Shown here: piece after piece, positions 10,881-49,068 of the stretch
How positions within the stretch are numbered: position 1 is the first letter of the stretch
How the letters are laid out: every line of letters begins with the position of its first letter
Assembly: GCF_900168015.1 (NCBI RefSeq)
Contig: NZ_FUYR01000001.1
Span: 1,796,943-1,860,942 of the forward strand
Source: Daejeonella lutea
GTDB lineage: Bacteria; Bacteroidota; Bacteroidia; Sphingobacteriales; Sphingobacteriaceae
Length of the DNA stretch: 64,000 nt
Direction of reading: 5' to 3'
Position numbers and translations under genes: made by a program
Notes under the pieces: model-generated
Told to the model about the DNA's origin: nothing
What the model saw: the letters and a program-made list of their open reading frames with translations, nothing else
The model's database searches: none

Positions 10881-11815
10881 GACTGCACCTCCCCTGCTTG
10901 CTGAAGTTCGGTCCTGCGCCCATGAAAACCGGTCATGGCACTGAAATAAATATCTTCCAGGTCCGGATGCTGCTGTTCAAAGCCAGCACCGGGGTCTGTT
11001 TGGCTATACACATGCACTATGGTGCGCCCGCCCAATAGTTTAGCAGAAATCACCTGATGTTCATTTGAAAGATCATTCAGCTGATCTTTATCAATAAGCT
11101 TACGCCAGATCTTACCCTGCAGATCTGCGATAGCCTGATCGGGTTTTGCCTCCAACAGTATTTTGCCTTTGTCGATTATGGCCATGTTTGTACACAGCTC
11201 CGAAACGTCTTCGATAATATGAGTCGAGAGGATTACAACACTCTGTTCACCCAGCTCACTCAGCAGGTTCAGGAAGCGCACCCGCTCTGCCGGATCTAAT
11301 CCCGCGGTAGGCTCATCAACGATCAGCAGGCGGGGATTACCAAGGAGTGCTACAGCCACCCCAAAGCGCTGCCGCATGCCGCCCGAATATCCGCCCAGCT
11401 TTTGCCGGCGCTTGTCCCACAAATTGGTTTGTTTAAGCAGCCGTTCGGTTACTTCTTTTCGGGAAGCCCGGTTCGCAAAACCCTTAAGCACGGCAAAGTA
11501 ATCCAATAATTCTTCGGCCGTACTTTTCGGATATACGCCGAACTCCTGGGGCAGGTAGCCCAAAGTTTGACGTATTTGATCTTTTTGCCTGATCACATCC
11601 AGTCCTCCCAAAAAAATTTCCCCCTGGTCTGGCTCCTGTAAGGTAGCCAGCGTCCGCATCAATGTTGATTTACCCGCCCCGTTCGGGCCCAGCAGTCCAA
11701 ACATCCCCGGAGGAATAGTTAGTGACACATTATTTAAAGCATGAACGCCATTTGCATAAGTTTTTGAGACGTTCCGTATCGTCAGATCTTGTGCGTGTTC
11801 GCTGATATTTTTCAT
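10877..11815 (-). CDS. ABC transporter ATP-binding protein
   Basis: From the ATG at 11815 this is a 312-residue ABC ATPase: Walker A GPNGAGKS, Q-loop LGYLPQEFG, signature YSGGMRQR, Walker B LLIVDEPTAGLD and switch His in STHI. The frame stays open upstream, but those residues have no homologous look, so the ATG before KNISEHAQDL was chosen. It supplies ATP hydrolysis for the permease/M1 fusion that overlaps its stop by 4 bases. It is divergent from the LytS/LytTR pair across ~250 bases, which suggests regulation by that system. Confidence 0.93.
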   Translation of the reverse strand: MKNISEHAQDLTIRNVSKTYANGVHALNNVSLTIPPGMFGLLGPNGAGKSTLMRTLATLQEPDQGEIFLGGLDVIRQKDQIRQTLGYLPQEFGVYPKSTAEELLDYFAVLKGFANRASRKEVTERLLKQTNLWDKRRQKLGGYSGGMRQRFGVAVALLGNPRLLIVDEPTAGLDPAERVRFLNLLSELGEQSVVILSTHIIEDVSELCTNMAIIDKGKILLEAKPDQAIADLQGKIWRKLIDKDQLNDLSNEHQVISAKLLGGRTIVHVYSQTDPGAGFEQQHPDLEDIYFSAMTGFHGRRTELQQAGEVQS

Positions 11816-12055
11816 TCTATGCTGTCTATTTAAATGCAAGCTGACCAAGTCTTTGTTCCTTGTTCTTTGCTCTTTTTTCTTTCTCCAAAACAACCATTCC
11901 TCACCCCCATCCCCAAACCCCATATACCGATCCCGTAAACTAATCGACCAAGCCCTGCTTTGCATCCGCGAAAAAGCTGGCAGGCTCATTCAGCACTTTC
12001 GCAGATCGGAAGAAGGCAACTGTCGAGAAGGTTATTAAAGAATAGCCGGAAAAAA

Positions 12056-12063
12056 TACCTTTG
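12056..12063 (+). promoter_or_regulatory. -7 box (TACCTTTG) of the LytS-type kinase gene
   Basis: TACCTTTG fits TAnnTTTG and ends four bases before the chosen ATG at 12068. This supports that start over the in-frame upstream codon at 11960 and again suggests a very short or absent leader. Confidence 0.5.
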
Positions 12064-12067
12064 TCCT

Positions 12068-13117
12068 ATGCATCGAATTAAAAGGGTATTCCGCAATGTC
12101 CATATCGTTCTTTGGGTTTTGTTTGGCCTGCTCGTAGCTCTCCAACTCAGCCAGGATCGGCCGAGTAGCGAGCACTGGCTTACCATGACCACAGGGATCA
12201 TGCTGACCACCCTTTATGTTTTTTACAGCCATTTTATTCTTCTCAAACAATTTTCCGGCAAAAAGAAACGGCGTCCTTACTTTCTCAGGCTGGGTTTGAT
12301 CATCCTTACGGGGAACCTACCCTTCCTGCTATTTCATCATGTAAAATTTGACACATTCTTCCTCTTCTTCAACTACTACATTATCAGCCTCATCTCTATG
12401 GTACCTGTTTTCGTGTTCCTTAGCTGGCTGGCGCGGGTCACCGAAAACCTCGTGATAAATACATTTAAAAAAGAGCAGTTGGAGAAGCAGGCCGTGGAAG
12501 CCGAGCTTTATTATCTCAAATCGCAGATAAACCCACACTTCCTTTTCAATACCTTAAACAATATCCACACACTGGTATATAAGCAGGCTCTGGCAGCTCC
12601 TGAGGCTGTACTTCAACTGGCATCGCTCATGCGCTATATGATCTACGAATCGAATTCCCCACTGGTGCCGCTCAGTCGTGAAATGACTTATCTGCAGGAT
12701 TACATGAGCTTACAGCAGCTGAAATATAAAAATTCACCCGTAGTTGACCTGCAGGTGGAGGGTCTTACTGACAGCTGCCATATCGCACCGCTTTTGTTTA
12801 TACACCTACTGGAAAATGCCTACAAGCACAGCCCTGCACGCCTCGAACCAGGAGAGGTGAAAGTGAACATGAAAATCACCGGAGATACTCTTACCTTCAT
12901 GGTACAAAACCCTGTTAGCACCAATCCGGGTAGAAAGGTTGATGAACCGGGCGGAATCGGCCTGCCGAATGTCAGGAAACGGCTGGCGTTATTATATCCC
13001 GGCAAGCACTCTTTAGAAGCAAACAACTCCGGCGGGACATTTACTGTAAAACTCAAAATCCAAGGCCTCAAATTAATGGCTCATGAAAAAGAAGCTGACC
13101 TGTTATATCATAGATGA
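12068..13117 (+). CDS. LytS/YehU-type sensor histidine kinase
   Basis: The 349-residue kinase has four N-terminal membrane helices (about residues 10-140), a coiled linker and a His_kinase domain with the phosphoacceptor in LKSQINPHFLFNTLNNIH, followed by a GHKL ATPase (LLENAYKHSP N-box, GGIGLPNVRKRL G-box). No extracytoplasmic sensor domain is visible. The start at 12068 was chosen because a -7 box lies just upstream. The response regulator start lies 35 bases before this stop. Neighbours are ABC transporter genes on both sides, so it may sense a membrane or peptide stress. Confidence 0.92.
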   Translation: MHRIKRVFRNVHIVLWVLFGLLVALQLSQDRPSSEHWLTMTTGIMLTTLYVFYSHFILLKQFSGKKKRRPYFLRLGLIILTGNLPFLLFHHVKFDTFFLFFNYYIISLISMVPVFVFLSWLARVTENLVINTFKKEQLEKQAVEAELYYLKSQINPHFLFNTLNNIHTLVYKQALAAPEAVLQLASLMRYMIYESNSPLVPLSREMTYLQDYMSLQQLKYKNSPVVDLQVEGLTDSCHIAPLLFIHLLENAYKHSPARLEPGEVKVNMKITGDTLTFMVQNPVSTNPGRKVDEPGGIGLPNVRKRLALLYPGKHSLEANNSGGTFTVKLKIQGLKLMAHEKEADLLYHR

Positions 13118-13811
13118 TGAGTACCTCGCCCAGGAGATCCTCGAAGAATATGTGAGCAAGGTTCCCTTTCTTGAACTGAAGGGCACTTTCTCAAGCCCCC
13201 TTGAGGCTGCTGAGCAGTTAAAGAACGATAAGCCAGACCTCCTCCTGCTCGACATTAACATGCCTGACCTGGATGGGCTCAGCTTCATTCCTATGCTGAA
13301 CCCGCGACCGATGATCATTCTGACCACTGCCTACGACCAGTATGCGCTGAAAGCCTATGAGCTGGAAGTGATAGATTATCTGGTAAAGCCCTTCTCCTTT
13401 GAACGATTTTACAAGGGAGTTCTGCGGGTGTACCAGGATCACAGCAGTAAACAAGCACCTGAGCAGAAAGCCAACCTGACCGAAAGCAAACCCGATCAGG
13501 ACTACATATTCCTGAAAGTTGGCCACCGCATCCAACGCATCGACATCCGCGATATCCTCCTGATCGAAGGCATGAAAGACTACCTCCGGGTTTCGACGGC
13601 TTCTGAAAAGATCATGACGCTGACCAGCTTTGCCAAACTCGAAGAACTTCTGCCGGCAAATAATTTCGTCCGCGTACACCGTTCCTTCATGGTTGCAATG
13701 GACAAAATCGATCATATTGAAAAAAACAGGATCCGAATCGCTGATCAGATCATTCCGATCAGTGACACGTATTCTGAGGCGTTTTATAATAAGCTGAAGG
13801 GCTTGTCATAA
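13083..13811 (+). CDS. LytTR-family response regulator
   Basis: The 242-residue protein has a receiver domain (IIDDE acidic pocket, phosphoacceptor in LLLLDINMPDLDG, lysine in YLVKPFSFERF) and a C-terminal LytTR DNA-binding domain (residues ~140-240, with DILLIEGMKDYLRV and NFVRVHRSFMVAMDKI). It overlaps the kinase gene by 35 bases in another frame, so the two are translationally coupled. Likely targets are the flanking ABC transporter genes; this is inferred from position only. Confidence 0.95.
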   Translation: MKKKLTCYIIDDEYLAQEILEEYVSKVPFLELKGTFSSPLEAAEQLKNDKPDLLLLDINMPDLDGLSFIPMLNPRPMIILTTAYDQYALKAYELEVIDYLVKPFSFERFYKGVLRVYQDHSSKQAPEQKANLTESKPDQDYIFLKVGHRIQRIDIRDILLIEGMKDYLRVSTASEKIMTLTSFAKLEELLPANNFVRVHRSFMVAMDKIDHIEKNRIRIADQIIPISDTYSEAFYNKLKGLS

Positions 13812-13820
13812 TACTGGCGC

Positions 13821-13859
13821 CCGTCCTTAATCGAACATATACTGTCCGAATGTGAACAG
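13821..13859 (+). promoter_or_regulatory. tandem operator pair CTGTCC-N6-GAACAG (putative sigma-54 enhancer)
   Basis: The proximal site at 13842-13859 is CTGTCC-GAATGT-GAACAG, identical at all 12 outer bases to the site at 49032-49049 before the efflux operon. A weaker copy, CCGTCC-TTAATC-GAACAT, lies at 13821-13838, 21 bp upstream. The proximal site ends 51 bases before the TGGCAC element. Binding by the NtrC-type regulator at 38953-40335 is inferred. Confidence 0.65.
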
Positions 13860-13910
13860 CACTTCCGCGAATCTACACCCAAGGTGCTGAAAATAAAGGC
13901 TTTAAAATAT

Positions 13911-13925
13911 TGGCACTGGTTTAGG
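13911..13925 (+). promoter_or_regulatory. sigma-54-like promoter TGGCAC-N5-TAGG
   Basis: A perfect -24 TGGCAC is followed with correct spacing (GG-N10-GG) by TAGG where TTGC is the consensus. The start codon of the FtsX-type permease lies 46 bases from the first base of the -24 element. The -12 match is weak; the shared operator spacing with the efflux promoter raises confidence. Confidence 0.6.
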
Positions 13926-13956
13926 TATGCTGGCTTGAACGATAGATGATCACCGT

Positions 13957-16401
13957 ATGATAAAGAATTACTTAAAAACCGCCTGGCGTAATTTATTCAG
14001 CAACAAGCTTTATACCCTCCTGAATATCGCAGGGCTGACTTTTGGCATCACCTGTTTCCTGCTTATCGGGCTGTATGTTTTTGATGAACTAACATTTGAT
14101 CAGCAACATAGCAAAGCAAAGCAGATTTACCGGGTTGTACAGCATATAAATACTAAGGGTGAAGCAAGTATCATCGGTTCTGCAAGTCACACTCTCGCTG
14201 AGCAATCACGATCATCCATTGCTGAGATCGAAAACACGACTAAGATCAGATTTATCGGCCGGGATAATCTTGTAAACCCACAAAATCCGGTGAATAACCA
14301 GGAGACAATAGCCATGGCCGATGAACGGTTTCTGCAAGTTTTCGACTTCCCCCTGCTCTACGGCAATAAGGATGCTGCGTTAAAAGAGCCAAATTCTATC
14401 GTTGTGGATGAAGAGCTGGCAAAGAAATTATTTAACAGTACGGATGTGCTGGGGAACACCCTGGTGTTTAATTTTCTTCAAGAGCCTTTAAAAATTACCG
14501 GGGTATTGAAAAAACTACCCGCAAACTCTAGCCTGAGATTTAATTTACTATTATCAGATGCCACAATTAAAAATGAGGGTCCGGTTGACTGGCTCCGAAA
14601 CGATTATAACGTTTTCACGGTGCTGGAAGAAGATACCGATGCAAGCCTTGTCGGGACTAAACTGACAAAACTGGTTCTTGATAAAATTCAACCGGAGTTA
14701 GGAACAAGCTTTTCGTTCAGTCTGCAGCCCCTGAGCGATCTCCATCTCAAATCCTCTGAAATTAGGGATGGGGCCAGGAACTCAAATGTCGATCCAATGC
14801 CCCGCGGAAGCCTTTTATATATCAAAATATTTTCATTTATCGCTTTCTTCGTGCTGCTTATTGGTGGTATAAATTACATGAATCTAACTACTGCACGGGC
14901 ATCTAACCGCTTGAAAGAAATTGGTGTACGCAAGGTTGCCGGCGCTATGCAGGGGCACCTGATCAGGCAATTTCTTATAGAATCATTGATGCTAACCTTT
15001 ATTTCTTTTGCGCTGGCTGTAATCGTATTAAATCTTGCCCTGCCGGCTTTTAATACGTTCACGAGCAAAGAATTGTCCCTGGGCTTTTCAACAGATTTTA
15101 AAATTTGGCTGTATGCGCTGGCGTTTACGGCATTAACAGGGATTTTAGCCGGCACCTATCCTGCATTCTTGCTTGCTCGCTTCAAACCCGTTTCTTTAAT
15201 GAAAGGGTTAAACCTGCACTCAAACAAAGATGTATCCTTAAGGAAAGTACTGGTGGTATTCCAGTTCACGATCTCAACGGTGATGATCTTTGCTACAATT
15301 ATTCTTTACCAGCAGGTTCAGTTCCTGAATCAAACCAATCTCGGTTTCGATAAGGATCTCCTGGTGGTTATTGATGTGAATTCCGGTAAAGCAAGATCAA
15401 ATTTTGAAATGGTGAAAAATGAGATGATGAAGATCCCTTCCGTAAAAAGTGTGTCAGTGTCATCAAGGGTTCCCGGAGAGTGGAAAACGTTTATGAACGT
15501 CAAGATCAAACCACGAGGCAGCTCAGATGATCACCGGATTGCATTTTTCGTGGGGGCAGATAAAGATTTTACAAAAACCTTCGGTGTTCATCTCCTGGAT
15601 GGAAGGACTTTTGATACTGTGAATGATTCAGCCTCTGTCATTCTTAATGAAACGGCAGCAAAGATGCTGGGTATTACACGGGCTGATGAGCAATTAGTTG
15701 AGATCCCTTCAGCTGCCAGCGGCGGATTATCTTACCAGGCCATCTCAGATTCAAATCTTCCGTTTGAAGCCAAAGTAATCGGTATTGTCAAAGATTTTCA
15801 TTTTCAATCGCTAAGAGATAAAATTGAACCGCTGGTACTCGCATACAACCAAAATCCGGTGCAACCGATAGATTACTTTACAGCTAAAATTTCATCTTCA
15901 GATGTTAAAGGCAGCCTGAGCAAGTTAAAGGAAGTAATGCTGAATAATGATCAGCAAGATCCTTTTGAGTATAACTTCCTCGATGACCAGATTGCAAAGT
16001 TCTACATCGAAGATCACAGGCGTCAAACCATGATTATCTGGGCAGCATTATCCAGTGTTTTTATTGCTTGCCTGGGCTTGTTCGGCCTGGCTACATTTTC
16101 TGCAATGCAACGGGTTAAAGAAATCGGAATACGCAAAGTACTGGGAGCGGATGTTCTTGGATTGGCTGCCCTCTTATCAAAAGATTTCCTGAAACTGGTA
16201 TTAATAGCAATCTGTATCGGTTTTCCGCTTGCCTGGTGGGGAGCAAACAAGTGGCTGCAGGAATACGCATATCATATAGATGTAGAATGGTGGATGTTCG
16301 CCGCTGCGGGTTTCCTCGCCATTTTGACAGCCTTGTTAACGACAAGTTTCCAGGCGATTAAAGCGGCCCTCTCAAGCCCGGTCAGGAATTTAAGGAGTTG
16401 A
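13957..16401 (+). CDS. FtsX/MacB-type ABC permease, full-length duplicated form
   Basis: The 814-residue protein has the layout of Bacteroidota ABC transporter permeases: N-terminal helix and MacB_PCD periplasmic domain, three helices (~290-420), a second helix and periplasmic domain, and three C-terminal helices. Each FtsX domain has the RLKEIGVRKVAGA or RVKEIGIRKVLGA signature. No ATPase gene is adjacent, so it must share one in trans, possibly the MacB-like ATPase at 45435-46103. It stands alone 145 bases after the LytTR gene with its own sigma-54-like promoter and operators. Confidence 0.93.
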   Translation: MIKNYLKTAWRNLFSNKLYTLLNIAGLTFGITCFLLIGLYVFDELTFDQQHSKAKQIYRVVQHINTKGEASIIGSASHTLAEQSRSSIAEIENTTKIRFIGRDNLVNPQNPVNNQETIAMADERFLQVFDFPLLYGNKDAALKEPNSIVVDEELAKKLFNSTDVLGNTLVFNFLQEPLKITGVLKKLPANSSLRFNLLLSDATIKNEGPVDWLRNDYNVFTVLEEDTDASLVGTKLTKLVLDKIQPELGTSFSFSLQPLSDLHLKSSEIRDGARNSNVDPMPRGSLLYIKIFSFIAFFVLLIGGINYMNLTTARASNRLKEIGVRKVAGAMQGHLIRQFLIESLMLTFISFALAVIVLNLALPAFNTFTSKELSLGFSTDFKIWLYALAFTALTGILAGTYPAFLLARFKPVSLMKGLNLHSNKDVSLRKVLVVFQFTISTVMIFATIILYQQVQFLNQTNLGFDKDLLVVIDVNSGKARSNFEMVKNEMMKIPSVKSVSVSSRVPGEWKTFMNVKIKPRGSSDDHRIAFFVGADKDFTKTFGVHLLDGRTFDTVNDSASVILNETAAKMLGITRADEQLVEIPSAASGGLSYQAISDSNLPFEAKVIGIVKDFHFQSLRDKIEPLVLAYNQNPVQPIDYFTAKISSSDVKGSLSKLKEVMLNNDQQDPFEYNFLDDQIAKFYIEDHRRQTMIIWAALSSVFIACLGLFGLATFSAMQRVKEIGIRKVLGADVLGLAALLSKDFLKLVLIAICIGFPLAWWGANKWLQEYAYHIDVEWWMFAAAGFLAILTALLTTSFQAIKAALSSPVRNLRS

Positions 16402-37676: not shown

Positions 37677-38969
37677 TCAGAAAGATATTTTAAATTCCGT
37701 CCAGCCTCCCCTGCTCTCCAGGGAGAACTCCATTCCATGATTGTAAAGAACTTCCCTTGTAAGGGTAAGGCCAACACCTTGCCCATTTTTCTTCGTGCTA
37801 AAAAATGCGGAGAATAGCTGCTTGCTAACTTCCCTGGAAATACCGTGCCCGTTATCCAAAATTGACAGGCTGCGGGGTGAACTGGAGGTACGTAAAATGA
37901 TGGTGCCAGTACTTTGAATTGCTTCAATAGCGTTCTTAATCACGTTGATAAGTACCAGTTCGATTTGCTGCACATCAATTTCAACTATAAGCGACTTCGA
38001 TTCCAGCTGCCACTCCCAGTTAATTACTTTATCCTTAGCCTGAGCGTCCATCAAGACCTGTACGGTTTTGAGTAAAGAGTGGACGTCGATTGATTCCCTG
38101 ATGGGCTCGGGGATTTTTACGACATCGGCAAAATTAGACATGACGGTACTAAGTGCCTTATTACGGTTTATTGCCACGGTTAGGGCATTGTCGTAATCAT
38201 CACGGTACTTTTCCTCCAGCTGACTTTTATACGTTAATATGGTGCTAAGAATGGAGTTGATCGCGCCGATGGAATTATTGGTCTCATGCGACATCATACG
38301 TATTACCTTTTCAAAAGCGCTCTTTTCTTTTTTGTAGATTTCGTCCGAAAGCTCCTCGATCATGATGAAATAATGGGAAAACCCGCGGTCGACAAAATAA
38401 GCTTTTTGGCATTTGTAAATCTGTGTTCCATTAATCGTTAAGATTTCCGATTTCCCATCCTGCAGGTTGTTCAACTCAGATGCAAGGGTTCCACTGAGCT
38501 TATCTAATTTTTGCCCGATAAAATTGGCTTCAAAACCGGGAAGAGTTGCTGCCGCCGGGTTCATCGAAGCTATTTTGTTTTCAGAATCAAGCATTATTAT
38601 CGCTGATGGAGATGCTTCTATAAGCTTGGAAAGGAAATAGTTCTTTTCACTTTGCTTGATTCGTTCTTCACGAAGCTGGTCGATCATTTGATTGTACACA
38701 TCGATAAGCTCATCCATCTCCGGGTGGCCAACATGTATAAGCCGGGTAGTAAAATCCTTGTCCTTTATCGATTCAATGCCAGAGGAAATTAATTTAAACG
38801 GCTCACTAATGGACCGGTAAAGCCAAATGGAAACGCCAATGGAACACAGGACAAGGATTTCTCCCAAAATAAACAGGTATTTATTTACTTCCAGGAGCAG
38901 AAATAGCAGAAAGATCAAAGTAAGATGTGTCAGGCTGCTGTAGAGCAGAAATTTACTTCTGAGCTTCAT
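37677..38969 (-). CDS. NtrB-type sensor histidine kinase, partner of the sigma-54 activator
   Basis: The 430-residue kinase has two membrane helices close together near the N-terminus (about 10-50, almost no periplasmic loop), a HAMP-like linker, a PAS domain (~130-220), HisKA with IRMMSHETNNSIGAINSI and a HATPase (NVIKNAIEAIQ, DNGHGIS, GQGVGLTLTREVLYNHG). It overlaps the response regulator gene by 17 bases. The pair sits directly beside the efflux operon and probably controls it. The lack of a periplasmic domain suggests membrane or cytoplasmic sensing. Confidence 0.92.
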   Translation of the reverse strand: MKLRSKFLLYSSLTHLTLIFLLFLLLEVNKYLFILGEILVLCSIGVSIWLYRSISEPFKLISSGIESIKDKDFTTRLIHVGHPEMDELIDVYNQMIDQLREERIKQSEKNYFLSKLIEASPSAIIMLDSENKIASMNPAAATLPGFEANFIGQKLDKLSGTLASELNNLQDGKSEILTINGTQIYKCQKAYFVDRGFSHYFIMIEELSDEIYKKEKSAFEKVIRMMSHETNNSIGAINSILSTILTYKSQLEEKYRDDYDNALTVAINRNKALSTVMSNFADVVKIPEPIRESIDVHSLLKTVQVLMDAQAKDKVINWEWQLESKSLIVEIDVQQIELVLINVIKNAIEAIQSTGTIILRTSSSPRSLSILDNGHGISREVSKQLFSAFFSTKKNGQGVGLTLTREVLYNHGMEFSLESRGGWTEFKISF

Positions 38970-40335
38970 ACGGGATATTATATTTTTCGAGCTTGCGGTA
39001 AAGTGTCCCGCGACTCAGGCCCAGCGAGCGTGCCACCTTACTGATATTTCCCCTGTGAAACTCCATTGCTTTTTGAATCATGGACAATTCCATCTCGTCG
39101 ATCGTCACGCTTCCTACTTCCGGCAAAGTAAACTTGGAGTTCTGAATTTTGCGATGCTCGGTTTGTTTCTCAAAGTCTTTTATCTCAAGCATATCTGTTT
39201 CACTGACCAGAACGGTGCGCTCTACCAGATTTTTAAGTTCCCTGATATTCCCTGGCAGGGATCTGCTTTTGAGCCAGTTGATTGCTTCTCGGCTGATGTT
39301 CAGTTCATCACGTCCATAAATCGTTTTTAAATTATCTAGAAAATAATTAATCAGTAAAGGGATATCATTTGAACGTTCTCTTAATGGTGGCAGGTTAACC
39401 GTTATCAGGTTAATGCGATAATACAGGTCTTCCCTGAACTTGTTTTCAGCCACCATTTCCTGCAGGTTGCGGTTTGTAGCGCAAACCACGCGTACGTCGA
39501 CTGTCTTGGTGCGGCTATCGCCCAGTACTTCATAGGTTCGGTCCTGAAGTACCCGGAGGAGCTTTACCTGGCTGTTCAGATCCAGGTCTCCAATTTCATC
39601 AAGAAATATGGTGCCTTTGTGCGCCATTTCAAAACGGCCAAGACGGTCATTTTTAGCGTCAGTAAATGAGCCGCGCTTATGCCCGAACATTTCACTTTCA
39701 AACAGCGAAGAGGAAATCCCGCCCAGGTTTACCTTAATGAAGGGTTTATTACGCCGGTTACTGTTTTGATGAATCGCTTCGGCAATCAATTCCTTTCCGG
39801 TGCCGCTTTCCCCGGTAATGAGAACCGAGGCGTCGGTCGAGCTGATACGGCCAACAGTTTTTAAAATCGACAGCATACGGGCATCCTCGCTTATAATATT
39901 CTCTAATCCGTATTTGTCATTTAATTGCTTTCTGTTGTATGAGTTTTCTGTTTGTAAACGATTTTTGTCCGAAAGCTCCAATGCGGTCCGGATTACCTGC
40001 ATGATGTTTGCATTATCCCAGGGCTTATGAACAAAGTCGGCAGCTCCATTCTTCATCCCCTCAACAGCCAGGGTTATTGAGCCCCAGCCTGTCATCAGGA
40101 TAACTGGAATTTCCGGCTTCAATTTCTTTATTGTTTTCAGCGCCTGAAGCCCTTCCAAACCGGAGGTTTCCAGCGAGAAATTCATATCAAGCAGCACCAA
40201 TTCAATTGCCCTTTCTTTAAGACGGGCATACCCCTCTTCGGGTCCTTCAGCGGAAGTGATTTCGAAGCCTTCCTGTTTTAAAAGCAGGCTTAGGGAGGTG
40301 CGGATGGCGATATCGTCGTCGATGATGAGGATCAT
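38953..40335 (-). CDS. NtrC-family sigma-54-dependent response regulator
   Basis: The 460-residue protein has a receiver (D6-D8 pocket, D50 acceptor), an AAA+ domain with Walker A GESGTGKE (175-182), Walker B GTIFLDEIGD (241-250) and Arg finger in LYYRINL, and a Fis-type helix-turn-helix (NISKVARSLGLSRGTLYRKL). The sigma-54 contact loop is GSFTDA (222-227), differing from the classic GAFTGA at two positions but keeping Phe and Thr. Its likely DNA sites are the CTGTCC-N6-GAACAG operators found before the efflux operon and before the permease at 13957. Confidence 0.94.
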   Translation of the reverse strand: MILIIDDDIAIRTSLSLLLKQEGFEITSAEGPEEGYARLKERAIELVLLDMNFSLETSGLEGLQALKTIKKLKPEIPVILMTGWGSITLAVEGMKNGAADFVHKPWDNANIMQVIRTALELSDKNRLQTENSYNRKQLNDKYGLENIISEDARMLSILKTVGRISSTDASVLITGESGTGKELIAEAIHQNSNRRNKPFIKVNLGGISSSLFESEMFGHKRGSFTDAKNDRLGRFEMAHKGTIFLDEIGDLDLNSQVKLLRVLQDRTYEVLGDSRTKTVDVRVVCATNRNLQEMVAENKFREDLYYRINLITVNLPPLRERSNDIPLLINYFLDNLKTIYGRDELNISREAINWLKSRSLPGNIRELKNLVERTVLVSETDMLEIKDFEKQTEHRKIQNSKFTLPEVGSVTIDEMELSMIQKAMEFHRGNISKVARSLGLSRGTLYRKLEKYNIPYEAQK

Positions 40336-40534: not shown

Positions 40535-41716
40535 CTATTCCTCATACAAAGCTTCTGCAGGTTGAATTTTGGATGCTCTTAAACTTGGATATAAACTACA
40601 GGCGATCATCAACAGGTATATAAAAAGTGCAGCGCCGGCAACGCCCAACATTCCTTCACGAAGACTAAGATTTCCGAAAAAGCCGGCGATGATGAACTGT
40701 AGGGCAACAAATGCTCCTGGTATAGTGGCGAAACTGCTTAGTACAATTGTTTCAGTCAGGAATTGCTTCAGGATATTACCTGAGACCGCGCCGGTTGCTA
40801 CCCTTAAACCAATTTCCGATCTTCTTTTCGCGATTGCGTAGGAGAATACTCCTGAAATTCCAAGGAAGATATTGAGAACCAGAAAACCGAAGACCACTAA
40901 AGCCAGTGTGAGCTGAATGAGATCATTTTTATTGCTCATTTTCTTTACCATGTTCATTGGCGAGCTATTCCGTACAGTAAAATTGTCGTCTTTGATTGTT
41001 TCAAGTACTTTCCTGATCTTTCCTTCCATCAAGAAAAAATTATTGGCATATTTTGATTTTACCAGGATCGCTGAGCCGGTGGTATCCGGACCAATCGGTT
41101 TAAATATATAGCCCTTCCCATTACCTCCTATCTCGCGGGAGAAATTATCTCTATACTCAGCAGTCACACCTACTATCCTCGTCTTTTTGCCGCTCAGAAG
41201 GATTGTCTGACCGATCGGATCCTGACCATTGAAATATTCCTCTGAAAGATCCTCCGTAATTATGATTGGAACGATAGCTGAAAGCCTGTCGTCCTTTGTA
41301 AACCATCGCCCCTTTTTTATCGGGAGCTCTAATACCTGATTGAAGTGCTCGTCCGCAATAAAGGTTCTGAAAGATAATTTATTGTTCTGAATGACAGCTT
41401 TTTCATCAGTTGGCCATGAATAGAACGGGATCAGGGAGGCATTGCTCACCAGTTCCGCTTCAGGCATTGCGCGTAATTTTTGTTCAATAGCACTTACGTA
41501 GCCTTGCGCCTTATCTGTTGGAACCTTATCCAGGCCCAATGATATCGCCCAAACATGATCATAGTTATAATAGTAGGGTTTGAAATAGGCTAAAAACTTG
41601 TCGACGTTAAGTGCTATAAAAAACGTCAGAGCAACGAATGAAATAAACAACTGGAAGACCAGCAAAAAATTACTTTTCCTCTTGCGCCATAGCATTTTGA
41701 AGGTGTGTCTGATCAT
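40535..41716 (-). CDS. FtsX/MacB-type permease, B-type paralogue 2
   Basis: The 393-residue half-size permease has a first helix (FLLVFQLFISFVALTFF), a periplasmic MacB_PCD-like domain and three C-terminal helices with KRRSEIGLRVATGA and the end motif SKIQPAEALYEE. It is most like the protein at 42978-44087 (same start MIRH, same end motif). It overlaps the preceding gene by 4 bases and is the last gene of the efflux operon. Confidence 0.92.
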   Translation of the reverse strand: MIRHTFKMLWRKRKSNFLLVFQLFISFVALTFFIALNVDKFLAYFKPYYYNYDHVWAISLGLDKVPTDKAQGYVSAIEQKLRAMPEAELVSNASLIPFYSWPTDEKAVIQNNKLSFRTFIADEHFNQVLELPIKKGRWFTKDDRLSAIVPIIITEDLSEEYFNGQDPIGQTILLSGKKTRIVGVTAEYRDNFSREIGGNGKGYIFKPIGPDTTGSAILVKSKYANNFFLMEGKIRKVLETIKDDNFTVRNSSPMNMVKKMSNKNDLIQLTLALVVFGFLVLNIFLGISGVFSYAIAKRRSEIGLRVATGAVSGNILKQFLTETIVLSSFATIPGAFVALQFIIAGFFGNLSLREGMLGVAGAALFIYLLMIACSLYPSLRASKIQPAEALYEE

Positions 41717-42972
41717 AAGTTATTGCCTTTAAGTGCGTTAACGGGATGCATTTTAGACATCCTGTATGCTGGGTATACGCCGGAAAGAAAGCCGAAAAAA
41801 CAGCAGCAGCCAATGCAAAATGCGACCACCCTCCAGCTCAGTATGAACTGCCCGAACGAAATCTGGAAGAGGGGATCGAAAGCGTTCAGCATCAGGATCA
41901 GCGCATCTGAAAATAAATAGGCTAAGATTACTCCGATAAGCCCGCCGGTTAGCGTTAGGATGATATTCTCAACAATAAACTGTCCTGCAAGAGTGGATGA
42001 TGAAGCTCCGAACGATTTACGGACACCTATCTCTGCAGCCCGTTCTGAAATTCTGCTTATATTAAGGTTGATGAGGCTTATCACTGGTATCAGCAGGAAC
42101 AAGAACAGGCAAGCAAAAAGTGCCGTAAATAACTGGGCGAAATCTGGATCAGGATCAGAGTTGCGTACTTTTGCGAAGTGCTGTAAGGCTGTGAGCGCAT
42201 TGGCTTTTACAGAAGTAAACTGCGGATTGGGAGGTACAATCTTCCTCATCCTGGCATCGATTTCAGCCTTCACTTTCTCCGCATCTTCGCCCGAGCGGGC
42301 AAGCAGCATTGCTTTATATTGACCATGGATGGTCGGCCATTCGGCAGGGGGCGGTACAGGAGCGGGATCAGCAGTATAAGGTATCCAGGCGTCAGATCCT
42401 GCATCACTTAAAAGCGGTGCACTCTTGACAACCCCTATTACGCGGAAGGGGATACCAAATAGCTCAATTATCTTTCCAGCAGCATTCCCCTCACCGAAAT
42501 AATAATCCTTGAGTTCTTCAGAGATAACTACAACCCTGCTGGCATTTTTTACCTGCCGGGCATCGAATGGCCTGCCCTCAAGGAACTTGAAGTTGGTTAT
42601 CGACCAAAAATTTTCATCGGAATATTTTAACCGGTGCGCTCTGGGAACCCCATTACGGGCCGAGACATATCCCCCATCCCGATAAATCGAAATTCTCTCC
42701 GGTGTTCTCAAGGTGGTAATATAACGCTGCAGGAAGGGCAGGCTGACTTCGTCAGGACGGCCCCGGTCATCTTTCATGAGGAAAACTTCTTTGAGGACGA
42801 GTGTTCGCCCGCGGTTGGGCTCCGTATCACTCGCACCCACGATCTGGTCGATAAATGCCGCTGTTATAGTAATGATCATAATCGTGAAGCTGATACCCAC
42901 GAGCGTCAGGAACGTGAAATACTTCTTGCGAAGCATTACCTTGAAGGCGAGTTTAATGTAGTTTTTTAGCAT
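41713..42972 (-). CDS. FtsX/MacB-type permease, A-type paralogue 2
   Basis: From the ATG at 42972 the protein has 419 residues. It starts LKNYIKLAFKVMLRKKYF with the first helix, has a large periplasmic domain and three C-terminal helices with ERAAEIGVRKSFGASS. It is a paralogue of the protein at 44084-45283 and presumably pairs with a B-type permease. Overlap of 4 bases with the next gene and a gap of 5 bases before it mark a tight operon. Confidence 0.92.
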   Translation of the reverse strand: MLKNYIKLAFKVMLRKKYFTFLTLVGISFTIMIITITAAFIDQIVGASDTEPNRGRTLVLKEVFLMKDDRGRPDEVSLPFLQRYITTLRTPERISIYRDGGYVSARNGVPRAHRLKYSDENFWSITNFKFLEGRPFDARQVKNASRVVVISEELKDYYFGEGNAAGKIIELFGIPFRVIGVVKSAPLLSDAGSDAWIPYTADPAPVPPPAEWPTIHGQYKAMLLARSGEDAEKVKAEIDARMRKIVPPNPQFTSVKANALTALQHFAKVRNSDPDPDFAQLFTALFACLFLFLLIPVISLINLNISRISERAAEIGVRKSFGASSSTLAGQFIVENIILTLTGGLIGVILAYLFSDALILMLNAFDPLFQISFGQFILSWRVVAFCIGCCCFFGFLSGVYPAYRMSKMHPVNALKGNNL

Positions 42973-42977
42973 ATCGA

Positions 42978-44087
42978 TTATTCTTCGTGGAGCGCCACCG
43001 CCGGTTGGATCCTTGAAGCGAGTCCAGCCGGATACAAGGCACATAGCATAACTACCAGGTAGATTACACCAGCTGCATATATGATTGACGGGTAATAACC
43101 CGGCTGTTTACCAAAGAACTCGAAAAAGACGAATTGTAAAGCCACGATAACTCCCGGGATAATAGCGATTGTTGCCAGCAAGCCTACTTCAAGCACTATT
43201 TGCCAGTATATCTGTGCGGACGTTGCACCGGCAGCCCTTCTCAGACCGATCTCCGGCCTTCGGCGGTTGATGTTCTGGTAAAGAATACTAAAAAGCCCCA
43301 GCACGACATTTATCAGCAGAAAACTACTCATGATCATCATACCGGCCATCATACGACTGTGTTCGGAATCATATTCCGCTTTATAAAGGCTGATTGGAAT
43401 GATATTATCCGAAAATTCGCTTTCATCACCGCCCGCGGCAGATTTTAGTTTATTATAAATTTTGTCATCAATGGGTTTCGTCAGCCTCACAAGGAACATA
43501 TTTGCCGGTTCCATAACAAAAACATGGGGCCTGTCCTGGTAACCTGTGGGATCGTTCAGATCATTTGCCACACCGATAATTTTATATACTGTCGTCCCTA
43601 TTTTAAGTACCTGACCTTCTGCTTTTGTTTTTGGAAAAAGCTGGTCACGCAATACGGTCGTTATCACAACAGGCAGTTTTGCAGCTCCCCGATCCGTTTG
43701 GTCGAACCATCTGCCGGAAGACATGGAAATCTTGAGTACTGATGTCAGTCCTTCATCTGCGTGATTCTTGTAGACCCGCATAAATTTGTCACCATAAAAG
43801 AGGGTGTCATTTGTGGCAATATTTGAATAAGGCCTGTGCGATGTGTTACTGATATGTTGTACTTCTTTTATCGAACGCAAGATGGTTCTGGCTGTGTCGC
43901 CGGAAGAGCCTGGATACACGCTTACCACCTGATCAACATTAAAGTTTGGCTGTTTTGAGGTTGTTACTGCCAGGGAAAGGAGTAAGAACAAAAAGCACAT
44001 GACCAGGTACGCAAAAAAAAGCTCGACTGTAAGAACAAGATGCTTCATCTTCTTATTCCACACTAGTTTCAAAAGGTGCCTGATCAT
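42978..44087 (-). CDS. FtsX/MacB-type permease, B-type paralogue 1
   Basis: From the ATG at 44087 the protein has 369 residues. It begins IRHLLKLVWNKKMKHLVLTV, followed by an N-terminal helix, a short periplasmic domain and three C-terminal helices with RRRPEIGLRRAAGATSAQIY and end motif SRIQPAVALHEE. In-frame codons upstream overlap the preceding gene and look non-coding. It overlaps that gene by 4 bases. Confidence 0.92.
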   Translation of the reverse strand: MIRHLLKLVWNKKMKHLVLTVELFFAYLVMCFLFLLLSLAVTTSKQPNFNVDQVVSVYPGSSGDTARTILRSIKEVQHISNTSHRPYSNIATNDTLFYGDKFMRVYKNHADEGLTSVLKISMSSGRWFDQTDRGAAKLPVVITTVLRDQLFPKTKAEGQVLKIGTTVYKIIGVANDLNDPTGYQDRPHVFVMEPANMFLVRLTKPIDDKIYNKLKSAAGGDESEFSDNIIPISLYKAEYDSEHSRMMAGMMIMSSFLLINVVLGLFSILYQNINRRRPEIGLRRAAGATSAQIYWQIVLEVGLLATIAIIPGVIVALQFVFFEFFGKQPGYYPSIIYAAGVIYLVVMLCALYPAGLASRIQPAVALHEE

Positions 44088-45283
44088 AAGTTTCCGTTCT
44101 TTAAGGCCTTTACGGCATGTAGCCTGGACATCCTCCAGGCAGGCACTGCACCCGACAGCAAACCAAAAAACAAGGATGCGAGCACAGCGTACATAATTAC
44201 ATCCCAATGAATAAGCACACTGTTAGATGCTATGACATCGTCATTGGAGGCCACGATATGGGTGATAACCAGGCCTGAGCAAGCGTAGGTTAACAGGACG
44301 CCCAATAGGCCACCTATCAGTGTTATGATAATACTCTCTGCTATGAATTGCCCAGCCAGCACGGAAGACGAAGCGCCAAAAGCTTTTCGGATGCCAATCT
44401 CAGATCTCCGCTCAGCGATTCGGCCGATATTTATACCAACCAGGTTCAGGGCCGGAATTACCATGGTGAAAAATATGAATACAGCCATTATAGCCAAATA
44501 ATCGCCAAAGTCATTGCGCTCATATACATCATTCGCCCACAATTCGACGTTCCGCTTTTTAGGATTATAGCGTTCGTTTATCAGTTTACTAAGACTTTGT
44601 TTAATTTCAGGAAGATCCGACTGTTGCTTCGCGACTATTATAGCAGAATAGATCGGGTTTTTATTTGCACCGAAGTGGTAGCGATTTAACGGTATGAATG
44701 CCTGAGCAGCCTCTGGTCCGACACCTCCAATATGCAGGAAATCTTTTATCACCCCGATTACTCTGAGCCTGGGAGTGGTTTCGAGGAATTGACCAACCGC
44801 TTTTTCATCGCCGAAATAATGTTTTTTAACTGATTCAGTTATCACCACTATTGACTGAGCTCCACGGGCTTCATCGGCGGTAAACGTACGCCCTTCGAGA
44901 AGATCATGTTTATAGATTTTCCAGACTTTCTCATCAGTGAAAACCACGTCGATTGAGGTTTTTTTACCATTTTTAAAAGAAGTCAGCTGGCCAGCGATAT
45001 ACCGGCCCATAGTCTCGACATTCGCCAGCTTTTCGACCTGATCATAGAAAACAGGTTCCGGGGCCGAAAATCTGAATTGATCTCCTTCGACAGTGAAACC
45101 CCTGTAGTAAAGCGTTCTCTCACGGTTTATGTTAGGTGCATCATTTCCGAACGTAATGGCAGTTATGCTCGCTATGATGGAAAAAACCATGATCGTAAAG
45201 CTTATTCCGAAAATACTGATTGCCGTAAAGAACTTCTGCCGGAGCATGACTCTGAAAGCAATTTTTATGTAGTTTTTTAGCAT
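44084..45283 (-). CDS. FtsX/MacB-type permease, A-type paralogue 1
   Basis: The 399-residue protein begins LKNYIKIAFRVMLRQKFF, with the first helix at ~20-40, a periplasmic domain of ~230 residues and three C-terminal helices with ERRSEIGIRKAFGASSSVL; it ends SRLHAVKALKNGNL. It is the first of four permeases, arranged A-B-A-B. It is separated from the ATPase gene by a heptad array. Confidence 0.92.
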   Translation of the reverse strand: MLKNYIKIAFRVMLRQKFFTAISIFGISFTIMVFSIIASITAITFGNDAPNINRERTLYYRGFTVEGDQFRFSAPEPVFYDQVEKLANVETMGRYIAGQLTSFKNGKKTSIDVVFTDEKVWKIYKHDLLEGRTFTADEARGAQSIVVITESVKKHYFGDEKAVGQFLETTPRLRVIGVIKDFLHIGGVGPEAAQAFIPLNRYHFGANKNPIYSAIIVAKQQSDLPEIKQSLSKLINERYNPKKRNVELWANDVYERNDFGDYLAIMAVFIFFTMVIPALNLVGINIGRIAERRSEIGIRKAFGASSSVLAGQFIAESIIITLIGGLLGVLLTYACSGLVITHIVASNDDVIASNSVLIHWDVIMYAVLASLFFGLLSGAVPAWRMSRLHAVKALKNGNL

Positions 45284-45434: not shown

Positions 45435-46103
45435 CTAATTCACCTGCCTTCCATCGAAAAACCGGATCACCCTCTCGGTCTTATTTGCCATGTTCTCGTC
45501 ATGTGTGACCATGACAATGGTGGTGCCTTCAGTTTTGTTCAATTGCAGCATGATGTTCATGATCTCTTCTCCCATGACGCTGTCGAGGTTACCTGTTGGT
45601 TCATCGGCCAGGATGATCTCGGGGTTGCCCACAATGGCACGGGCAATTGCCACTCGTTGCCTTTGTCCGCCGGAAAGCTGGTTCGGATAGTGCTTGGTGC
45701 GGCTGTTCAAGCCGACTTTTTCAAGGGCCTCAAGGGCTTTTTTGCGTCGTTCAGATCCCGATACACCTTTGCGATAGAGTAAGGGGATTTCTACATTGTC
45801 GACCACAGAAAGGTCATTGATCAGGTGATAGCTTTGAAAAATAAAACCCAATTTCTGATTTCTCATATGTGCCAGGCGTTTGTCGGCATACCCTGAAATA
45901 AGTGTGTTGTCGATCTCTATCTTGCCGGAGCTGGGTTCATCAAGAAGTCCCATAATATTCAGAAGTGTACTTTTTCCGCATCCGGACGGACCCATAATGG
46001 AAACGAATTCGCCTTTATTGATAACAATATTTACTTTGCTCAAGGCCATAGTCTCAATGGTGCTCGTGCGGTAAACTTTTTCTACGTCTGTTAACTTTAT
46101 CAT
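45435..46103 (-). CDS. MacB/LolD-type ABC ATPase
   Basis: The 222-residue ATPase has Walker [10 protein letters not shown]-loop [10 protein letters not shown], signature [14 protein letters not shown], Walker [14 protein letters not shown] and switch His in [10 protein letters not shown]. Its size and the RQRVAIARA context are typical of MacB/LolD ATPases that work with FtsX permeases. It serves the four permeases downstream and perhaps the lone permease at 13957, which has no ATPase of its own nearby. Confidence 0.95.
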
Positions 46104-46181: not shown

Positions 46182-47681
46182 CTAGTTCAGTATTTTCTGG
46201 TTCTTTTCGAAGTCGTATAATGTCAGTGTGCGGATGTTGAAGTAAGCATCCCAGAAATTTCTGAGCGAGAAAATATAGTCCCTTTTTGCCTGGTCTTTCT
46301 CCTGAAGTGCAATGTTCAGATCTGTTATACTCAGATCGCCCAGCATATACCTGGCTCGCGCTATTCCATACCGTTCTTCCGCAGTCTGATCTGCTTCACG
46401 GTTGCTTTGCATCTGTGCACGGATCATGTTGAACTGTTTCACCTGGGTTAAAATGGCCTGATCAAAATTAATCTCCTCCTGGGCAATGGTATACTGTACC
46501 AGTTTCTGATTAGCCTCGGCGGTTTTAATCCGGGAAGCAGATCTTCCCCAATCCATGATGGGGATCTGAAAACCCAGTCGGACGCGCTGCTGATCCCTGG
46601 GGTCGCGGTATATGCCTCCAATATCCGGCGCGCGGTTGGTAAGACCAAAAGTCCCAAAAAGACTTGCATTAAGTCCATTATCACCATGTGCACGGGCAAC
46701 TTCACGCTGTGCCTCAAGCAATGCACGTTTGTATTCCACGGTCTGCCTTTTATTAGCCCGGGCTTCACGAATGGCGGCCTCCGGGTCAACTTCGAAATTG
46801 GGGAGGTTTTCTGGCAGAACGAGCTCGATCACACTGTTTTCTTTGTAGCCGATATACGACTTCAATTGCAGCATTGCACTTTCTGAATTTAGATTTGCCT
46901 GTGCAAGTGCCTTCCCGGCATTTAAGGAAGCCAACCTGAGCTGAAGCAGCTCGTCTTTGGAAAGCTTGCCCAGTTCGGACCTTACCAAAGCTATTTTGTA
47001 GATGGTATCATTATTAATCTTGTTTTTTTCGGCTATACCCTGATTGATCTGGCTGATCATCAGGTTAAAGAATAAGGAAGATGCCCTGTAGCCTACTTCT
47101 TCAATATCTTCGGAAAATTTCTTTTGCGATTCTTCATATTTCAATGGCTCTGTTTTTTTATCCCAGGCAAGCGGGTTGAAAGCGAAGAGGGGTTGGTTAA
47201 AGCCAATGATCAGGGGATTTCCATTGTAACGGGTCTGCCTCCGGTCGAAATCCTGGAAACGAAGTAAGCTGGAGTTAAGAAATACCTGGGCACCTGTCAG
47301 GCCTATGTTCTGCGTGATCCCCAGGTTTAGCGACGAATTATCATTTGCCACGGGTTGAAATTCAACGGTCCCGTCCGGTTGCGTTACTGGAATATTGTCG
47401 CGGTTGAATTCAGGCAGGGTACCATTAAGCATCAGTTGGGGTCTGTAATTAGACCTGAATGTTTTCCATTGCCAATACCGGTTTTCTTTTATAGTTGCAG
47501 CCTGCAGTGACGCGGTGGAGTTTTGTTTAGCAATGCTTATCACTTCCTTTAAACCCAGACGTACTACAGGTATTTCCTGGGCATAGCTTTGAAAAGAAAG
47601 TAGAAATACCATGGCCGCATAAGCACAACCGAAACATGTTAGATTGAAACGAATGCTAAAGTTGAATCTATTCCTTTTCAT
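46182..47681 (-). CDS. TolC-family outer-membrane efflux protein
   Basis: The 499-residue protein has a signal peptide (AAMVFLLSFQSYAQE) and the TolC repeat structure with two helical-hairpin halves (VGYRASSLFFNLMISQINQGIAEKN and the C-terminal NFDQAILTQVKQFNMIRAQMQ). It forms the outer-membrane channel of the efflux complex. It starts 2 bases after the HlyD-like gene stop. Confidence 0.92.
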   Translation of the reverse strand: MKRNRFNFSIRFNLTCFGCAYAAMVFLLSFQSYAQEIPVVRLGLKEVISIAKQNSTASLQAATIKENRYWQWKTFRSNYRPQLMLNGTLPEFNRDNIPVTQPDGTVEFQPVANDNSSLNLGITQNIGLTGAQVFLNSSLLRFQDFDRRQTRYNGNPLIIGFNQPLFAFNPLAWDKKTEPLKYEESQKKFSEDIEEVGYRASSLFFNLMISQINQGIAEKNKINNDTIYKIALVRSELGKLSKDELLQLRLASLNAGKALAQANLNSESAMLQLKSYIGYKENSVIELVLPENLPNFEVDPEAAIREARANKRQTVEYKRALLEAQREVARAHGDNGLNASLFGTFGLTNRAPDIGGIYRDPRDQQRVRLGFQIPIMDWGRSASRIKTAEANQKLVQYTIAQEEINFDQAILTQVKQFNMIRAQMQSNREADQTAEERYGIARARYMLGDLSITDLNIALQEKDQAKRDYIFSLRNFWDAYFNIRTLTLYDFEKNQKILN

Positions 47682-47683
47682 CG

Positions 47684-48931
47684 CTAGTCCTTAATTTCAA
47701 CTTTATCCTGGTTCTCAAAATCTTTCATATCGGTGACGATGACTTTGTCCCCAGCCTTTAACCCTGACCGGATTTCTATGTAGTCAAAATTGCTTTCCCC
47801 AACAGTCACTACCCTGCTGGATGCTTGATTTCCATTCACCACAAATAATTTTTGGTGTGCAGACCCATCGAAGGCGGAACCGTTCTTTAAACGCAGCACC
47901 TGATTTTTTACCGAAGTCACTATGAAAATCTCAGTCTTGAGATTGGATCTCAAAAGCGGGTGATCTTTCTTATCAAGGTTCACAAAGAATTTTACTGTGC
48001 CGTTTTCTACGGCTGGCTGGATACTGCTAATCCGGCCGCGCAGATCAGTATCATTAATACGGATGATTACCCATCCGCCATTCCGCAGTTGAGACGCATA
48101 GGCGTCTGATATGCTGCCTTCAACCTTAAAGCTGCGAAGGTCCGCTATTTTGGCGATTTCTGACCCTTCGCTAACCTCTGAGCCTATCTGGCTGCTTACC
48201 CAGGTAATTATTCCGTTTGCTGGTGAGCGTACTTCAGCCTGGTTAAGTTTCCTGTCAGATTCCGAGATGCTTTTATTCTGGATACTCATCTGCAGACCCA
48301 GGCTTCGCAGGTCGGCCTGCATGGTTTTTTGCTGATTGGAAATTTGATTCTTCAGTTGTTTTAATTCAATTTTCGCGATGTCGAGATTAAGAACAGCCTG
48401 TTTCACTCTTTCTGCTGTGCCGCCACCGATCTTAAGTAAGGAACGCTCGTGCTCCAGAGCTGATTCCAGGCTCTGGATTCGCATTTCCTTTATTGAATAC
48501 TGGGTTTGCAGGTCATTTAAGGTGCGCTCCAAACTGAGCCTGAGCTGATTTATTTTGTTGCGATTAACTTCCTGCTCGTCCAGCAGCTTGTCGTAATTTA
48601 TTTGAGTAGTTTCCTTATTGAGTTTCAAAATGGATTCGCCCATCTGTACAGCCTCCCCGGCACTGTGCAGAACTTGCTCAATCTTCGCGTTGATAGGGCT
48701 TGTGATCAAAAACTCGTATTCAGGAACGATCACCCCGGAAGCAGGGATGGTTGCTTCTATGGTTCCAACCTCTGTTGTTTCAATTGTAATTTTTGAGCGT
48801 TCTATTGACGGTTCTATCAGGCTTCTGAAACCAAAAAATGCAATCGTCATTGCGATAATGATTGAGCCTGCGATAAGCCATTTTCTGAATAAAGCCTTCC
48901 GTTTAAAATCTGCGGATAATTCGGTGTCCAT
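47684..48931 (-). CDS. HlyD/MacA-type periplasmic adaptor
   Basis: The 415-residue protein has one N-terminal membrane helix (WLIAGSIIIAMTIAFFGF), a lipoyl domain split by a long coiled hairpin (~110-210), and a beta-barrel (DKVEIKD terminus, VEGSISDAYASQLRNGG). It joins the inner-membrane permeases to TolC. It is the first gene of the operon. An AGAGGA Shine-Dalgarno-like word lies before the start, and a sigma-54-like promoter and two operators lie further upstream. Confidence 0.93.
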   Translation of the reverse strand: MDTELSADFKRKALFRKWLIAGSIIIAMTIAFFGFRSLIEPSIERSKITIETTEVGTIEATIPASGVIVPEYEFLITSPINAKIEQVLHSAGEAVQMGESILKLNKETTQINYDKLLDEQEVNRNKINQLRLSLERTLNDLQTQYSIKEMRIQSLESALEHERSLLKIGGGTAERVKQAVLNLDIAKIELKQLKNQISNQQKTMQADLRSLGLQMSIQNKSISESDRKLNQAEVRSPANGIITWVSSQIGSEVSEGSEIAKIADLRSFKVEGSISDAYASQLRNGGWVIIRINDTDLRGRISSIQPAVENGTVKFFVNLDKKDHPLLRSNLKTEIFIVTSVKNQVLRLKNGSAFDGSAHQKLFVVNGNQASSRVVTVGESNFDYIEIRSGLKAGDKVIVTDMKDFENQDKVEIKD

Positions 48932-48966: not shown

Positions 48967-48981
48967 CCAACGATTGTGCCA
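48967..48981 (-). promoter_or_regulatory. sigma-54-like promoter of the efflux operon
   Basis: On the minus strand, TGGCAC (48981-48976), N5, TTGG (48970-48967) form GG-N10-GG, a perfect -24 with one mismatch in the -12 element (TTGG for TTGC). The start codon is 50 bases from the first base of the -24 element. Two operators lie upstream. Confidence 0.75.
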
Positions 48982-49031: not shown

Positions 49032-49068
49032 CTGTTCCATAATGGACAGGTTGTTTCATAGTGGACAG
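49032..49068 (-). promoter_or_regulatory. tandem CTGTCC-N6-GAACAG operators (putative enhancer of the efflux operon)
   Basis: Read on the minus strand, 49049-49032 is CTGTCC-ATTATG-GAACAG and 49068-49051 is CTGTCC-ACTATG-AAACAA, 19 bp apart. The first ends 50 bases before the -24 TGGCAC. The outer bases match the site at 13842-13859 exactly. The rest of the spacer, 49069-49302, shows no gene. Confidence 0.7.

Follow-up and report, generated by a model that had tools for sequence, protein, structure and literature searches.

A lone FtsX-type permease of Daejeonella lutea as a probable outlying member of a dispersed sigma-54 regulon

The closest described systems to the locus analysed here concern promoters, activators and permeases. 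First, a 2025 cross-phylum survey predicts sigma-54 promoters before FtsX-like (COG0577) permease genes, enriched in Bacteroidia, and presents this link as the first evidence of its kind (PMC12316311). The part of the survey considered here says nothing of enhancer sites, an activator or the structure of a regulon for these permeases. Second, NtrC-class activators (the ZraR, AtoC and NtrC type) combine a receiver, a sigma-54 activation domain and a Fis-type helix-turn-helix (HTH) domain, and their systems place inverted-repeat sites in tandem some 50 bases or more ahead of the -24 box. Third, fused double FtsX permeases of about 800 aa are represented by the ADOP family (TIGR03434) and by the darobactin exporter permease DarB (NF038008). 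In these bacteria it is common to find FtsX/MacB permeases that lack an ATPase, and what they work with and how they are controlled is generally unclear. The locus described below shares with the survey the presence of -24/-12 promoters before FtsX-type permease genes; beyond the part of the survey considered here, the present analysis adds tandem sites, their two spacings and a link to a HlyD-ATPase core. A search of the literature, which covered few subscription papers, did not turn up the enhancer motif, an activator assignment or the two spacings.

The window, by which we mean the whole 64,000-nucleotide stretch of Daejeonella lutea DNA that was analysed, contains a lone double permease of the FtsX/MacB type on the plus strand (13957..16401, 814 aa), with no ATPase or adaptor gene adjoining. 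It matches MacB_PCD (PF12704, 94.2 bits) and FtsX (PF02687, 87.1 bits) over the cut-offs, each in two stretches, which assigns it by sequence to the MacB/FtsX permease superfamily. In length and in the fusion of two permeases it is like ADOP and DarB, but it scores far below the cut-off of either family (267 of 622 bits and 124 of 700 bits, respectively). Its control region (13821-13925) can be read as a predicted promoter dependent on sigma-54, with a tandem pair of enhancer sites. The predicted main enhancer site is the inverted repeat CTGTCCGAATGTGAACAG (13842..13859, plus strand); a degenerate predicted site, CCGTCCTTAATCGAACAT (13821..13838, plus strand), lies 21 bp before it, and a predicted -24/-12 promoter, TGGCACTGGTTTAGG (13911..13925, plus strand), follows. 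The -24 box is exact and the -12 box is imperfect, with TAG in place of TTG; the same A at the middle -12 position occurs in 3 of 40 related promoters. The genome has a gene for the matching sigma factor, rpoN, identified by one Sigma54_DBD match of 187 bits.

The other control region of this kind in the window belongs to an efflux operon on the minus strand, here called system A. Its predicted main enhancer site, CTGTCCATTATGGAACAG (49032..49049), is preceded at 19 bp by a predicted upstream site, CTGTCCACTATGAAACAA (49051..49068), and followed by a predicted -24/-12 promoter, TGGCACAATCGTTGG (48967..48981). The operon, whose order HlyD-TolC-ATPase-permeases-EBP_A-HK_A is conserved, comprises, all on the minus strand, a HlyD adaptor (47684..48931), a TolC-like outer membrane protein (OEP, 46182..47681), the ABC ATPase ATP_A (45435..46103), four half-size FtsX permeases (40535..45283; individually 44084-45283, 42978-44207, 41713-43044 and 40535-41716), the activator EBP_A (38953..40335), which is a response regulator with a sigma-54 activation domain and a Fis-type HTH, and the histidine kinase HK_A (37677..38969). 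The domains and the tandem sites are those of the NtrC class, but scores stay below every curated equivalog cut-off (best 415 of 714, for AtoC), and the targets here are ABC exporters. Judged by its predicted genes, system A is a self-contained exporter paralogous to a second one, system B, and both use the shared promoter architecture.

The initial annotation had placed the two control regions of the window side by side, on the grounds that the 12 outer bases CTGTCC and GAACAG are common to both sites and that TGGCAC follows at nearly the same distance. Both observations hold. The exact pattern CTGTCC-N6-GAACAG has two matches only in the whole 4,028,641-bp genome (none in the control), at 13842 and, on the minus strand, at 49049, against 0.01 expected in the window from dinucleotide shuffles; TGGCAC starts 51 bases past the main site of the lone permease and 50 bases past that of system A. 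A second copy also lies upstream of both, but the claim of equal spacing stands only for the permease, where it lies at 21 bp, and not for the efflux operon, where it lies at 19 bp. A looser pattern, GTCC-N6-GAACA-N40-65-TGGCA, has five matches in the genome (one in the control): the window permease, the window efflux operon, a lone FtsX permease on contig C8, one within recN and one antisense to a putative L,D-transpeptidase gene, the last two lying in or antisense to unrelated genes and being treated as chance matches. Requiring the main site, a second copy 19-22 bp upstream and TGG[CT]A at 66-71 bases from the start of the site left three matches in 280 kb of the Daejeonella lutea genome, each before exporter genes, against an average of 0.03 under a first-order Markov model. 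The third of these precedes the lone FtsX permease on contig C8 (210 kb). Yet another lone permease (contig C10, 1.39 Mb) is preceded by a main site, GCGTCCGAATCCGAACAA, which lies 70 bases ahead of TGGTAC and is accompanied by a weak second copy.

The same arrangement turns up throughout the bacterial family, where it marks predicted sigma-54 promoters carrying paired sites for activators of the response-regulator type. The motif followed by TGGCA gave 42 matches in 121 family genomes, against 6 in a backwards control. Where the downstream gene was clear, the matches being taken as intergenic, it encoded an FtsX permease in 10 of 24 cases, a HlyD adaptor in 10 and a TolC in one (21 of 24 in total). 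The stricter version TGTCCG-N4-CGAACA matched 103 times, in 57 of the 400 family genomes searched, and twice in the control. Only one match was found among about 285 genomes from other families of the class, so the site is specific to this lineage. The expectation that matches would precede FtsX permeases and adaptors was thus strongly borne out, both in the genome itself and in its relatives. The stray loose matches in recN and antisense to the putative L,D-transpeptidase gene are what could be said for an accidental resemblance of the two control regions, but the joint architecture, seen three times and always before exporter genes, and the enrichment in the family leave that explanation a negligible probability.

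System B occupies C10:478-491 kb in the Daejeonella lutea genome and includes a paralogous activator, EBP_B (C10:479304-480632), which is usually divergent from an operon of the order HlyD_B-ATP_B-Perm_B. The HlyD of this system resembles DarC (168 bits). The recognition helices of EBP_A and EBP_B are near-identical and fit the pattern [LI][ST]R..LYR[KR], which is absent from the other three activators of the genome. EBP_B was present in 29 of 30 motif genomes checked, and an EBP_A-like second match in only 7 of the 30. The exception, G015, has three permease promoters and no detected EBP_B. As separate observations on this cluster, its second permease is apparently interrupted by one TAG stop in Daejeonella lutea (L064:16210-18627, C10 486-489 kb), and in a relative (G327, contig C15, L211) more motif promoters follow the cluster at steps of about 25 kb.

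The two systems differ in the geometry of their promoters. In system A promoters, the tandem sites are 19 bp apart in 14 of 20 and the main site starts 67 bases before TGGCA in 16 of 20, whereas system B promoters with clear sites have a tandem spacing of 21 bp and a main-site start 68-70 bases before TGGCA. In the pooled set, the second copy lies at 21-22 bp in permease promoters (n = 40) and in HlyD_B promoters (n = 22) and at 19 bp in HlyD_A promoters; matches inside genes had no peak of second-copy spacing. The family promoter set includes orthologous promoters, and the copy at 21-22 bp persists after a redundancy cut (27 permease and 11 HlyD_B promoters). A local -12 consensus, taken from aligned promoters of relatives, shows the successive positions of TTG in the 40 permease promoters to be T in 40, T in 34 and G in 31, and matches in coding sequence had no -24/-12 box; an earlier test of the -12 position against TTGC gave 55 matches against 57 expected. 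The window permease, with tandem sites 21 bp apart and a main-site start 68 bases before TGGCA, has the geometry of EBP_B promoters and departs from that of EBP_A in both values. Its spacing of 21 rather than 19 bp points to a regulator other than EBP_A.

The permease itself leads to the same system. Its closest relative in the genome is Perm_B (32% over the full length, 422 bits), a fused double permease as well, while its similarity to the half-size permeases of system A is weak (at most 90 bits, 24% over half). The motif EIG.RK..GA, which we take to be the ATPase-contacting region, is kept in both FtsX halves of the lone permease. The B cluster of the relative G327 has a single ATPase, with at least seven double permeases around it. 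The lone permease probably shares ATP_B of system B.

The initial annotation had instead assigned the lone permease to EBP_A alone, with ATP_A as its ATPase. It can appeal to the location of both loci on one contig, to the 12 outer bases shared exactly and found nowhere else in the genome, and to the nearly equal distance to TGGCAC. The 21-bp spacing, the Perm_B type of the permease and the occurrence of permease promoters in relatives that mostly lack EBP_A all count against it. Each of its two parts, the regulator and the ATPase, is probably wrong, and we consider the assignment as a whole improbable.

Because the recognition helices are near-identical, EBP_A could still cross-bind at the permease. 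This makes room for a promoter on which both EBP_A and EBP_B act, integrating two signals through alike half-sites; the identity of the 12 outer bases with the system A site and the degenerate EBP_B sites of the genome itself are in keeping with it. The tandem spacing, however, is conserved and yet different between the two systems, which suggests insulation, and EBP_A is absent from most relatives that have such permeases. We regard control by both activators as unlikely, though less so than control by EBP_A alone.

We therefore favour, at a probability of roughly 0.6, the reading that exporter system B forms the centre of a dispersed regulon to which the lone permease belongs as an outlying member. 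The most likely switch is the EBP_B system, far off in the genome, and not the one beside the efflux operon. Some findings weigh against the system B assignment: the outer bases of the permease site closely resemble those of the system A site, the -12 box of the permease promoter is imperfect, and G015 has permease promoters with EBP_B undetected. The EBP_B operon of the genome itself was proposed to carry the same strong motif, and this failed; it has a degenerate pair of sites only, in the right geometry (ATGCACGGTAGCGAACGA, 70 bases before TGGCAC). Finally, the promoter is absent at orthologues of the lone permease with 47% (G153, G058) and 58% (Fibrisoma limi) identity, so it is not conserved at this particular permease.

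One further candidate regulator lies next to the permease. A LytTR response regulator (13083..13811) and its histidine kinase (PF06580, 11960..13117), both on the plus strand and outside the conserved architecture, are adjacent to the permease, upstream of it and on the same strand, and LytTR regulators bind direct repeats of a period similar to the 21 bp seen here. Control of the permease by this pair (11960-13811) through such direct repeats was rejected and is very improbable, since the motif loci scanned contained no LytTR gene besides that of the window itself. Moreover, the same sites are found ahead of HlyD_B operons and go together with a -24/-12 box, and a divergent ABC exporter (7272-11989, minus strand) is a likelier target of the pair. 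That exporter consists of an ABC ATPase and a 1201-aa protein in which ABC-2 membrane segments are joined to an M1-type peptidase domain.

System B operons had no TolC where they were read. The shared promoter does stand before TolC genes in four relatives. These are similar to the TolC at C10:494 kb in the Daejeonella lutea genome, the TolC identities having been settled by BLASTP against a Pfam-identified OEP; the C10 gene is possibly the missing TolC of system B. In the same region (L065:3100-5579, C10 at about 493.0-495.5 kb), a pair of sites in B geometry, ATGTTCAGAATCGGACCT and then GTGTCCGTTTTCGAACGT 21 bp on, lies 69 bases before TGGCT and precedes a possible decayed permease start, an ABC ATPase and then a TolC gene.

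The favoured assignment to system B suggests the following mechanism. The kinase HK_B would phosphorylate the response regulator EBP_B, dimers of which would bind two inverted repeats 21 bp apart, the main site starting about 68 bases before the -24 box. As 21 bp is two helical turns, both repeats would face the same side of the DNA. EBP_B would then remodel sigma-54 RNA polymerase through ATP hydrolysis and switch on the HlyD_B-ATP_B-Perm_B operon together with several lone double permeases and, probably, a TolC. The lone permeases, having no ATPase, would probably rely on ATP_B and HlyD_B, so that a single exporter core would be fitted with interchangeable permeases. The activator of system A would use nearly the same half-sites at 19-bp spacing, and spacing would decide which activator acts.

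A broader proposal, which we put forward tentatively, is that the helical spacing of the tandem sites, 19 versus 21 bp, separates two paralogous activators whose recognition helices and half-sites are almost identical, and that the activator with 21-bp spacing drives a plug-in exporter: a single ATPase-adaptor core would work with many permeases that are unlinked to it, have no ATPase and are gained and lost lineage by lineage. A promoter signature found across the family would connect the lone permeases with a single activator and a single exporter core, and so name both a partner and a regulator for them. The paired geometries also offer a natural case for whether spacing alone can insulate near-identical activators.

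The motif also stands at several further loci in relatives. At two of them (L107 in G007, L227 in G282) the promoter is followed by no more than the remnant of a permease, in the one a C-terminal piece and in the other an N-terminal piece that soon runs into a stop, which suggests turnover of lone permeases. In relatives of genus g17 (L203, L214, L218, L220, L202 and L234), the same tandem-site promoter precedes a small gene whose product, of ~141 aa, is putatively secreted and would by this promoter be a non-transporter member of the regulon. In genus g21 (L083 and L108), the motif and a -24/-12 box precede a gene for an ECF sigma factor, judged at L108 from the gene start alone as the gene is cut by the locus end, hinting at a cascade from sigma-54 to ECF in that genus.
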